Below are positions 1 to 3,612 of a DNA stretch of 47,671 nt, one piece after another. This DNA is from Wenzhouxiangella sp. GTDB lineage: Bacteria > Pseudomonadota > Gammaproteobacteria > Xanthomonadales > Wenzhouxiangellaceae. The DNA lies in the NCBI GenBank assembly GCA_007694055.1, contig RECK01000178.1, positions 1-47,671 on the forward strand, in the 5' to 3' direction. A program made the translations under genes and the position numbers. Numbering within the stretch: the first letter of the stretch is position 1; every line of letters begins with the position of its first letter. The notes beneath the pieces were generated by a model. That model saw only the letters and a list, made by a program, of their open reading frames with translations. It searched no databases and was not told the origin of the DNA.

Positions 1-84
1 CAAGCGGTCGACTTTCTCCAGAAACTCGATGCGGAAGCCGCTTTCGGCAGCCAGCCGGTGAAGGGATTCGGCCGACAGGCTCAT
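1..84 (-). CDS. AbiEii-type nucleotidyltransferase toxin, N-terminal fragment (cut by window edge)
   Basis: Only the first 28 codons are present, starting at ATG 84-82 and reading MSLSAESLHRL... to ...FLEKVDRL. The start overlaps the antitoxin stop in an ATGA arrangement (TGA at 83-81), so the two are translationally coupled. The short N-terminus, with an A-E-S-G-F-R-I-E-x-L-E-K-V pattern, is what I recall of the start of AbiEii/AbiGii nucleotidyltransferase toxins. Members of that family block growth by nucleotidylating tRNA acceptor ends or related targets. The catalytic GSxxD region lies outside the window and cannot be checked. The call rests mainly on the AbiEi-like partner and the overlap. 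Confidence 0.72.
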   Translation of the reverse strand, partial: MSLSAESLHRLAAESGFRIEFLEKVDRL

Positions 85-875
85 GCCAGCTCATCCCAGC
101 TCTGTTCGGCGAGGGAGACGGGAACCACCAGGTTCCAGCGGGAGAGGTAGCGCGTGGGTTCGCTGCTGGTGCGATCGAGGTAATGCGCACTGGCCGGTGA
201 ATGCTCACGCAGCTTGTCGAGCGTCTGGTCGTCGACCATCAAACGAGAACGGTTGACCTCCAGGAACCAGCCGACCTTGGCAGCCGTGGTGGCATTATCC
301 AGTGCCTCGACATAGCGGCACACTGTCGGCAAGTCCAGGTACTCGATCATGTCAAGCGAGCGCCAGACCTCCTCCCAACCGCCACACAGCTCGGGCCGAT
401 CCAGGACATCCACAAACGTGCGCTCCAGCCCGGTAACCCTGAGTGGAACGCCGGAACGATCCAGGGTTTCAATGCCGATCTCATGCTGATCGCGCCGCGT
501 CAGGGCCAGCGGGGTTGAAACCGGCCGATACAGGGTGCCCCTGAACTCGAACGGACGCAATTTGCGTTCGGCGAGAAACTGGACCTCATTGAAGCTGCTG
601 TAGGCTCGACCATGCAACTCCAGGGCACTGTGATAGGCCAGGGTGGCGTGGGGTGTGATGTGCCCGGCAATCAGGAACGGATCGACCGGGCAGCTTTCCG
701 GCTCGGAGCCCGGCGGGACGACCCAGTAAAGTCCGCGGCGAACCGGAAGAATGTGCCCTCGTTTGCGGTGGTAGTCCAACGAAGCCTTGCGGCCGGTGCC
801 GCTAATATTGGTCGCGGCCTCGAACTGGTCGATGCGAAACAGCTTGTGCTGCTTGATAAAGGACCCCGGCTCCAT
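81..875 (-). CDS. AbiEi-family antitoxin / transcriptional regulator
   Basis: A 264-residue protein of the AbiEi family (COG5340-like), the antitoxin half of a type IV toxin-antitoxin pair. Known AbiEi proteins have an N-terminal winged helix that autorepresses the operon and a C-terminal domain that neutralises the toxin indirectly. Visible here are an N-terminal segment with R-I-D-Q-F-E-A-A (about 14-21), a basic wing-like R-K-R-G-H-I-L-P-V-R-R-G-L-Y stretch (about 37-50) and the typical ATLAYHSALELHG segment near residue 80. The GLERTFVDVLDRPELCGG stretch near residue 150 is also characteristic of the family. The start at ATG 875-873 has a GGAAA Shine-Dalgarno at 893-889. The stop overlaps the toxin start by 4 bp. 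An inverted repeat immediately upstream suggests autorepression. Confidence 0.88.
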   Translation of the reverse strand: MEPGSFIKQHKLFRIDQFEAATNISGTGRKASLDYHRKRGHILPVRRGLYWVVPPGSEPESCPVDPFLIAGHITPHATLAYHSALELHGRAYSSFNEVQFLAERKLRPFEFRGTLYRPVSTPLALTRRDQHEIGIETLDRSGVPLRVTGLERTFVDVLDRPELCGGWEEVWRSLDMIEYLDLPTVCRYVEALDNATTAAKVGWFLEVNRSRLMVDDQTLDKLREHSPASAHYLDRTSSEPTRYLSRWNLVVPVSLAEQSWDELA

Positions 876-938
876 GACTTGATATATTTCCGCTTAAGGC
901 ATAAATACAGTATGCTTTACGAGCATATATATCAAGTC
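876..938 (-). promoter_or_regulatory. abiE operator/promoter: 12-bp inverted repeat
   Basis: Perfect 12-bp arms at 876-887 and 927-938 (GACTTGATATAT / ATATATCAAGTC) flank a 39-bp spacer. A second, smaller inverted repeat, TATGCT/AGCATA (911-916 and 922-927), lies inside. On the minus strand the distal arm contains a -35-like TTGATA (935-930). The proximal arm fills the gap between the Shine-Dalgarno and the ATG. Known AbiEi antitoxins bind paired inverted repeats to repress their own operon, so these arms are the obvious candidate operator. The A+T richness contrasts with the surrounding GC-rich DNA. The -10 is not clear. Confidence 0.6.
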
Positions 939-957
939 GGGTCTGCCTGATCGCGCT

Positions 958-998
958 CCTTCGGAGGGCTGTACTCTATCCAGCTGAGCTGCGGGCGC
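958..998 (-). pseudogene. tRNA-Arg (anticodon CCG), 5' half only
   Basis: Reading the minus strand from 998 gives an acceptor 5' strand GCGCCCG, a D-arm (GCTC..AGCTGGATA..GAGT), the anticodon 5' strand CAGCC and the loop CTCCGAA with anticodon CCG. The 3' anticodon strand matches for two bases (GG) and then diverges. No variable loop, T-arm (no TTCGA) or acceptor 3' strand follows. Position 8 is C rather than the nearly invariant U. The gene is therefore broken in the anticodon stem and the AbiE operon begins about 20 bp further on. This fits disruption at a tRNA attachment site or a deletion. Confidence 0.75.
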
Positions 999-1117
999 GT
1001 AGGCGCGGAGTATCGCAAAGTATCCTTGATTGGGGGTTGAGCGGCGCTTTGCTCAAGTTGCTGAATTTCTGCGGCAGAGCCTATTGATGGGCGGGGGCTC
1101 TGCGGTGACGATGCCTT

Positions 1118-1347: not shown

Positions 1348-3612
1348 TCATTGGTGAGCTTCAGTTGCGACATTCCGCCACGGCAGTTCTCCGGTCAGCA
1401 TGGTGCTGATGGCCTCGGCTTCGACCGGGCGAGAAAAAAGGAAGCCCTGGGCGAAATCGCATTTGAATTGTCTGAGCAATTCGAGCTGGTCCAGCCGCTC
1501 CACTCCTTCGGCCACGGTTTGCATGCCCAGATCCCCGGCCAGGCTGCAGATGGTACGGGTGATCGCCTGGTCTTCGTGGTCATCGGCCAGGTCCTGGATG
1601 AAACCGCGATCGATCTTGACTACCGAGATCGGGAAGTTTTTCAGGTAGGCCAACGATGAATAGCCCACTCCAAAGTCGTCGACCACGATCCGCATTCCAA
1701 TATCGTTGAGCTTTTCCAGCATGCGACGGTTGCGCATGAGGTTTTCGATCAGCACTTCCTCGGTGATCTCGAGGTGGATCAGCTCCGGCTGGATTCGATA
1801 CCTGTGCAACAGCATGCTGAGTTTTTCGGCGAAGTCACCCTCTCGTACCTGGGCACCGGAAACATTCACGGCCAGGCCCGGCGGTTGTTTCACGCTTTTT
1901 TTCCACTCCGCCAGGTCACTCAGTGCGCGCTCCAGAGCGAACTCGCCCAGCCGCCCGATCACCCCGGTTTCCTCGGCCACCCGTATGAATTCCTGTGGCG
2001 GCACCTGGTAACCCTTTTCGTGCTGCCAGCGCAGCAACGCTTCCAGGCCAACCAGGGAAAGGTCCTTGACGCTGACGATTGGCTGATAGACCACCCGAAA
2101 CTGGCCGGCATCCAGGGCATGGCGAATATCACGGCTGAGGTTCAGCCGATGCTGGGCCTGGCTGAACATCTCGCGGGTGAACACGGCAAACTGGTTACGC
2201 CCGGCATTCTTTGCCTTGAACAGGGCGGTATCGGCGTTTTGAATCAGGTCGGCAACGGTTTCGCCTGATTCGGAGTAGTAGGCAATACCGATACTGGCCG
2301 ATACGAAGAATCGGTTGTCGTCAATGGCAAAGCCGTGGTCCAGCGAGCGCAGAATGTTGATGGCCAGCTGCTCGATATCCTCCCGCAAAGGCCGAATTGC
2401 AGCGATCAGGAACTCGTCACCCCCGTGCCGGCCGACAAAATCGCGATCTTTCAGGACCGTCGCCAGTCGGCGCGGGATCTCGCACAAGAGCTGATCACCG
2501 AGCTGGTGGCCAAGGGAATCATTGATGTCCTTGAACTGGTCAAGATCAAAGAACATCAGGGCCAGCTGGCCCTTCTCACCTTCGCTGTCGGCGAGGATGC
2601 GCTCCAGGTAGCGCGTGGAGCCGGTCCGATTGGGTAGCCCGGTCAAGGTGTCATGCGTGACCAGCAGCTCCATTTCCTGCTCGGCCAGCTCGCGCTCCCG
2701 GATTTCCTGCTCCAGCCTGTTGTTCGAGCGGGCCAGGACGTTGGCGTGACGGCCGGCATTCAGGGCAAGAAAGGTAACGATAGCCAGCAGCAGCGAAACC
2801 GCGCTGCCACCGATGATTGCGACCCGGGGCAAGGCGGAGGCATATTGCTGTCGTGAGGATTCGCTGAGGCCGAATTCAAACTCCATGGCATCGCCATCGC
2901 CATCCAGATCAATGGCAAATCCTGCCTGCCACTGGTAGGTATTGAATTCGTCCGGCTCGGGATAGGGAAAAACAATCTCACCCCTGGATCTCACTCTAAG
3001 CTTCAGCTCATCGCGAAACATATCGGAAATCATGCGCTCGACCGCATCGGGCACACTGAAGGTGGCGGCGAGGAAACCGCGGTGCGCCACACCGACCCCG
3101 ATGGGGTGATAAAAGGTCAGGGTGAAGCGCCCACCCGGAATGAGCACCGGTCGGGCGATGACAAATTCGCCGGTCTGGCTTGCTTCTCGAAGCGCACCCG
3201 CATGGTATCTGGCCGGAGCGAAAATCAGCCGCGCGTCACTCGTCGCTGCATCGCTCTGCTCGATCCAGATAATCTCGAGCTCGGGGTCCAGCACCCCGAT
3301 GGCATGGTAAAAGGCATGATGAGATTTGAACAGGCTCACCTCGCGCTGCCAGCCGGACCAATCCTCCAGCCCGTGGTAGTCGAACCGTGCCGCCATGCGC
3401 TGATGAGCCAGGATTTGCTCATTGACGCCGTCCAGCATGTCGGCGTGCACGTATTCGGCCAACTGGCGGACGTGCCGCTCAAGCGTTGCATCCTGGTCAT
3501 CGACCAGGCTGCGATAGAACAGGTAGTTGGCGGCAAGTGCGGCTATGAGGATCAGAAATGCCAGCAGCAGCGCTGCCTGCGGAGTTCCGGAAGCCCGCTC
3601 ACTTGCACTCAT
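1348..3612 (-). CDS. Membrane sensor GGDEF-EAL protein (c-di-GMP synthesis/degradation)
   Basis: A 754-residue inner-membrane protein. It has an N-terminal transmembrane helix (about 13-33), a periplasmic sensor region of about 220 residues, a second helix near 260-283, then GGDEF and EAL domains. The GGDEF motif is intact (397-401, RHGGDEF). The inhibitory RxxD site is KxxD, so product inhibition is probably absent. The EAL domain keeps EALLRW (524-529), the Asn of NVSGAQ, EITEE, DDFG, the Lys of VKIDR, EGVE and QGF, so phosphodiesterase activity is expected. The frame stays open far upstream, but the start is placed at ATG 3612-3610, with GGCGGG upstream and the hydrophobic signal anchor right after it. 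An upstream extension would run antisense through two other genes. It is transcribed alone, divergent from the membrane protein at 3764. Confidence 0.92.
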   Translation of the reverse strand: MSASERASGTPQAALLLAFLILIAALAANYLFYRSLVDDQDATLERHVRQLAEYVHADMLDGVNEQILAHQRMAARFDYHGLEDWSGWQREVSLFKSHHAFYHAIGVLDPELEIIWIEQSDAATSDARLIFAPARYHAGALREASQTGEFVIARPVLIPGGRFTLTFYHPIGVGVAHRGFLAATFSVPDAVERMISDMFRDELKLRVRSRGEIVFPYPEPDEFNTYQWQAGFAIDLDGDGDAMEFEFGLSESSRQQYASALPRVAIIGGSAVSLLLAIVTFLALNAGRHANVLARSNNRLEQEIRERELAEQEMELLVTHDTLTGLPNRTGSTRYLERILADSEGEKGQLALMFFDLDQFKDINDSLGHQLGDQLLCEIPRRLATVLKDRDFVGRHGGDEFLIAAIRPLREDIEQLAINILRSLDHGFAIDDNRFFVSASIGIAYYSESGETVADLIQNADTALFKAKNAGRNQFAVFTREMFSQAQHRLNLSRDIRHALDAGQFRVVYQPIVSVKDLSLVGLEALLRWQHEKGYQVPPQEFIRVAEETGVIGRLGEFALERALSDLAEWKKSVKQPPGLAVNVSGAQVREGDFAEKLSMLLHRYRIQPELIHLEITEEVLIENLMRNRRMLEKLNDIGMRIVVDDFGVGYSSLAYLKNFPISVVKIDRGFIQDLADDHEDQAITRTICSLAGDLGMQTVAEGVERLDQLELLRQFKCDFAQGFLFSRPVEAEAISTMLTGELPWRNVATEAHQ

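Follow-up and report, generated by a model that had tools for sequence, protein, structure and literature searches.

We identified, on a contig of a Wenzhouxiangella genome, the 5' half of a tRNA-Arg(CCG) gene that is joined at its last base to an AbiE toxin-antitoxin operon, and found that the same tRNA gene is broken within one base of this position in related genomes, with other DNA behind the break. Our best reading, which we consider about evenly poised between right and wrong, is that the window holds one, attL-like end of an element inserted site-specifically in the tRNA-Arg(CCG) anticodon loop. Site-specific insertion is preferred because the break at nt 40 recurs with other DNA and because the AbiE homology starts at the junction. 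The window, that is the whole stretch of 47,671 nucleotides analysed here, is the entire contig C394 of a genome assembled in 459 contigs (G000), and its left edge is the contig end.

The half gene is located at positions 958..998 on the minus strand, where it comprises linear nt 1-41 of the tRNA with the anticodon at 962-964, and is non-functional. Its identity is confirmed by two intact genes of the same genome (G000:C82:6707-6783 and C193:4535-4611), both called tRNA-Arg(ccg) by ARAGORN and both on contigs separate from the fragment, to which window positions 958-998 are identical at 39/41 nucleotides (E = 4.9e-11 in the genome search and 3.1e-13 in a small custom database). The two differences from the intact copies are a T to C change at linear nt 8 (window 991) and a T to A change at linear nt 29 (window 970, in the anticodon stem). 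The fragment reaches one gene end and stops at the anticodon stem-loop, a known crossover sublocation. Past the break, the next 957 bases contain neither a complete tRNA gene nor an integrase; ARAGORN called no tRNA in the window, and no candidate for the tRNA-Arg 3' half matching at least 30/44 positions was found anywhere in it. A functional RNA made from the tRNA half was considered and dropped, since the window copy is apparently decayed.

The AbiE operon lies on the same strand. The abiEi antitoxin gene (81..875, minus strand) is assigned by PADLOC (PDLC02270 AbiEi, 3.1e-104), while its match to Pfam AbiEi_4 (3.6e-5, score 24.2) falls slightly under the cut-off of 25, and no NCBIfam model matched either AbiEi or AbiEii. 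The abiEii toxin gene starts at 84 in an ATGA overlap with the AbiEi stop and extends over 27 codons to the contig end (1..84, minus strand); these 27 aa match at 89% the AbiEii of genome G022, which is a Pfam AbiEii protein, and the remaining part of AbiEii is not in the G000 assembly. Between AbiEi and the tRNA half is the leader (877..937, minus strand), which we read from the sequence as a candidate AbiEi operator with promoter and which can be aligned in five AbiE loci. It contains an outer inverted repeat with arms at 877-887 and 927-937 and an inner imperfect repeat at 896-903 and 911-918. The junction itself is at 957..958 (minus strand): the nearest AbiEi relative, at 89%, is found in genome G002, and the AbiE locus of that genome (G002:C45) matches the window over 957 bases at 91% nucleotide identity, starting at window 957 and so adjoining the last tRNA base. 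Thus, the original prediction of a 41-nt tRNA-Arg 5' half on the minus strand, decayed at C8 and followed at its exact end by AbiE, is upheld, and its proposed check for another tRNA-Arg(CCG) in the genome yields the two intact copies on C82 and C193.

Close relatives of the AbiE operon are also found away from this tRNA gene. In the stretches examined around the four close AbiEi relatives (G002, G022, G181 and G018), no complete tRNA was called and no tRNA-Arg 5' half was present (best 21-23/40), indicating that this AbiE can sit elsewhere, which we count against the insertion model. The same stretches rule out that AbiE constantly travels with tRNA-Arg halves. AbiE-type genes are common in the genus: counting partial hits, 19 of 30 genomes yield 32 matches to PF08843. 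We do not argue for enrichment at tRNA-Arg(CCG), since only 3 of the 32 matches lie within ~5 kb of the tRNA gene, two of them in one genome, which is too few. In favour of the insertion model, the closest AbiEi relative, in G002, is arranged 3' end to 3' end with an integrase remnant of the family seen in genome G028 (see below), and a stretch some 40 bases ahead of that remnant (L157 ~968-1014), near the AbiE closest to that of the window, reads as a 3' half left by an anticodon-loop break in a different tRNA, presumably tRNA-Val(CAC); Rfam gave no tRNA match there.

On the other side of the tRNA half, the upstream flank (999..1008, minus strand) is common to genome G006, in which contig C81, next to the same GGDEF/EAL gene, aligns with window 959-1008 at 90%. 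In the window, this gene is placed at 1348..3600 on the minus strand, with an approximate start, on the basis of Pfam GGDEF and EAL matches and of its relatives. Across the genus, it is often found next to tRNA-Arg(CCG), and the best match to the GGDEF region of the window is again G006.

The 5'-half pattern was matched in 24 of the 30 genomes of the genus, and tRNA-Arg copies were classified in 30 loci from 28 genomes. Leaving out a contig of G008 that ends exactly at nt 40 and a contig of G016 that ends at nt 55, this classification gives seven 5' halves in six genomes: one each in G006, G014, G027 and G029 and two in G028, all broken at linear nt 40, and that of the window, broken one base further at nt 41. 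The G008 contig end (L052 1-40) may reflect strain variation at the crossover point. Later breaks, in the T-loop region, are seen in 5' copies of G001 (one) and G019 (two) and constitute a different case, and the incomplete genome G021 contains no copy matching the 5'-half pattern and one orphan 3' half of tRNA-Arg(CCG) (L257 ~647-707). As a separate observation, L057 (6756-7228) holds three tRNA-Arg copies at a spacing of 198 bp, in two of which a GC-rich insert disrupts the T loop; L169 and L055 have copies interrupted in a similar way.

Three unrelated kinds of DNA follow the halves broken at nt 40 or 41. At five loci, the half leads into ACTGAG or ACTGAC and then, past a promoter-like stretch, into a complete tRNA; in G028, into ATGTCC and an AbiEii gene; and in the window, into the AbiE leader. 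Of the two origins offered by the original prediction, integration fits much better than a deletion scar, since other species have a break at this position but continue with other sequence. Relatives that carry the same fragment without AbiE, which that prediction had named as evidence against itself, do exist: G006, G014, G027 and G029 have a half ending at nt 40 and, in place of AbiE, a short spacer followed by a complete tRNA.

A fuller structure is preserved in G028 (L044). Counted from the GGDEF gene, this locus shows twice the series of AbiE operon, integrase remnant and 5' half, after which come 43 nt and an intact tRNA. The second AbiE operon is unrelated to the first and in the opposite orientation, the AbiEi types being PDLC02237 and PDLC02227 (PADLOC). 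Both integrase remnants read away from the tRNA halves and belong to one family, one of them with a PF12167 match, and both match an integrase of G010 whose Pfam domains include PF12167 and PF00589. Leading up to and including both 5' halves is a direct repeat of 609 bp at 90%, which contains the 5' half together with a promoter-like stretch and GGCACG repeats. In G012, an intact tRNA is preceded by a stretch that matches the flank of the first half over 144 bases at 96.5%, the 40 nt of the half being counted in, so that the two genomes represent the occupied and the unoccupied state as far as the G012 contig reaches; that contig ends at this flank and no GGDEF gene is visible on it. The G028 structure is what would be left by an element that carries a promoter and 5' half rather than the usual 3' half. 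Against this model, the interval from the GGDEF gene to the first AbiE operon of G028 yielded no 5' half, although one is expected there, and the stretches examined around intact integrases of the family (G003, G010, G018 and G027) contain no complete tRNA and no tRNA-Arg half. Elsewhere, in three genomes (L179, L181 and L182), a PF12167-family integrase, interrupted in L181, is followed by two conserved genes (~137 aa and ~462 aa) next to a transporter-like gene, with no complete tRNA nearby.

A different arrangement is seen where a complete tRNA follows the half. The spacer between the 5' half and the complete tRNA is 43 nt in G006, G014, G027 and G028 and 42 nt in G029. In G006, the acceptor pair 6/67 of the complete tRNA is U-A while the orphan half has C6, indicating that the complete gene is a separate allele. 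Defining a terminator as a hairpin-and-T structure of -8 kcal/mol or better, a threshold chosen after the values were seen, we found terminators in 0/4 three-prime flanks with the unit of half and complete tRNA versus 13/21 without it (n = 25, with no flank from G006 and with the G010 flank shortened by a contig end; one-sided hypergeometric p ~0.04, calculated by hand). From this contrast and the G006 allele, the tRNA-Arg(CCG) site seems to be used also by islands of another kind, which bring a whole tRNA gene with them, and the elements in G006, G014, G027 and G029 look like this mode, a point against the insertion model proposed for the window. Outside the genus, contig C38 of genome G397 (L254 1290-1438 and C38 ~123.8 kb) has a tRNA-Met 5' half (nt 1-39), 33 nt and a complete tRNA-Met, with an integrase matching PF12167 and PF00589 ~1.1 kb further on and a 3' fragment (nt 51-77) ~53 kb away. 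An integrase beside tRNA-fMet in G353 was discarded as a further case, the tRNA there being intact with no fragment in 59,701 bases.

For the window, we infer an element to the left, with an integrase, a link to C82 and a role for AbiE. More specifically, a tyrosine-recombinase element would recombine at the CTCCGAAG core, leaving the native host promoter and 5' half at the GGDEF side, where they would decay, and placing its own AbiE operon at the next base after the tRNA half. The other end of the element would bring a new promoter and 5' half to the host 3' half, and the tRNA joined in this way would keep one working gene, possibly the copy now on C82 with its ancestral-type terminator. AbiE would be cargo and may stabilise the element. 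Counting against this model, neither an integrase nor a far end is linked to the window, and the assembly contains no more of AbiEii.

In G000, the other end could be either C82 or C193, neither of which is linked to the window by sequence. The terminator on C82 resembles the one that G026 has next to its GGDEF-linked tRNA, and the promoter region of C82 resembles that of the G028 halves, which together fit a 5'-restoring mode leading from the window to C82; a DDE transposase fragment is found at the contig end. C82 may nevertheless be a separate locus, because one of its genes is also present (86%) at the G005 tRNA-Arg locus, where the contig stretch shows no GGDEF gene, and this speaks against the insertion model. 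C193 begins at tRNA nt 1 (L005 4535-4611) and has no terminator hairpin. A gene ~3 kb downstream of its tRNA, presumably metK, matches at 55% a G024 gene that lies ~12 kb downstream of the GGDEF-linked tRNA there; the G024 and G005 matches point in different directions. At E 1e-15, no protein of C82 or C193 was shared with other loci. The unlinked contig C133, which encodes a related, truncated integrase, was tried as the missing left neighbour and rejected, having no AbiEii and an integrase cut at the contig end.

The tRNA-carrying islands allow another history, possible although on balance doubtful, in which the native gene was first split by an island bringing a complete tRNA-Arg, after which an AbiE element entered the leftover core of the orphan 5' half, the intact copy beyond AbiE then being C193. 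Consistent with such a succession, the best match to the GGDEF region, G006, has a 5' half separated by 43 nt from a complete tRNA of a different allele; loci with the complete-tRNA unit are without the terminator, subject to the post hoc threshold on 0/4 versus 13/21; and C193 starts at tRNA nt 1, is likewise without a terminator and matches the gene downstream of the G024 GGDEF-linked tRNA. G397:C38 further demonstrates a complete-tRNA island at tRNA-Met. The two steps would, however, leave the ancestral-type terminator beside the intact C82 tRNA unexplained, and a search allowing up to 3 mismatches, in which matches with 2-3 mismatches were taken from their letters as other tRNAs, revealed no orphan 3' half in G000 or in the single-contig genome G027.

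The decay of the half gene and the abundance of AbiE-type genes in 19/30 genomes would also suit a deletion that removed the 3' half and ended by chance before a nearby AbiE operon. We find this improbable, as the break coincides exactly with the AbiE module's edge and lies within one base of that in six further halves, and a random deletion would need to meet both edges. Misjoining of unrelated sequences at the tRNA repeat during assembly or binning might be suspected from the fragmentation into 459 contigs and from C193 ending exactly at tRNA nt 1; it is very improbable given that the half has two private substitutions, that 41 bases are presumably short for an assembler overlap, and that the break recurs in other genomes, the single-contig G027 included. 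Within the preferred reading of a site-specific insertion, the candidate operator ends 20 bases from the crossover, and we speculate, with little confidence, that AbiEi binds over the attachment site and holds the element in the chromosome; on this view, unrelated AbiE operons would have been captured repeatedly at tRNA-Arg(CCG) through selection for antitoxin-gated excision and not as chance cargo.

We consider the recurrent AbiE cargo the most interesting feature of this locus. Three different AbiE operons at tRNA-Arg(CCG) in two genomes provide a natural series for studying why toxin-antitoxin systems collect at attachment sites, and, in a little-studied genus, a single tRNA gene appears as a repeated landing site through insertions leaving 5' halves. 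For annotation, half tRNA genes beside defence genes can be explained without a new RNA. Among the literature matches listed, no open-licence title or abstract opening concerned AbiE at tRNA 5' halves.

Insertion that leaves a 5' half appears to be a rarer variant of an established mode of integration. The Islander report (PMC4383910) gives a 5' fragment in 159 of 3919 tRNA islands, a known minority, so that the original prediction was only partly right in calling the break unusual. Like those islands, the window combines a displaced fragment broken in the anticodon region with an intact gene of the same identity elsewhere, and tandem arrays, here G028, occur in both; unlike them, its fragment and intact gene are on different contigs with no linked integrase, and it could not pass the Islander filters as described there. 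A short shared core, a broken host tRNA and a same-isotype tRNA supplied by the element also characterize tRNA-dependent lysogeny, as outlined by Guerrero-Bustamante and Hatfull 2024 (PMC10865867). That system fits the G006-type loci and G397:C38, which resembles it and is a candidate tRNA-carrying island outside actinobacteriophages, from which the examples considered here come; the window differs in having no complete tRNA in the 957 bases after the break, with the tRNA on the unlinked C193 as a candidate for a carried gene. For AbiE itself, the abstract on ICESsuHN105 (PMC11062541), a conjugative element of Streptococcus suis, reports that its AbiEi binds palindromes in its own promoter and affects the stability of the element. 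An effect of AbiE on the stability of an integrative element is therefore already published. The window differs from that conjugative element in that AbiE directly adjoins the attachment site and transfer genes are not visible; what the two have in common is an AbiEi/AbiEii operon.
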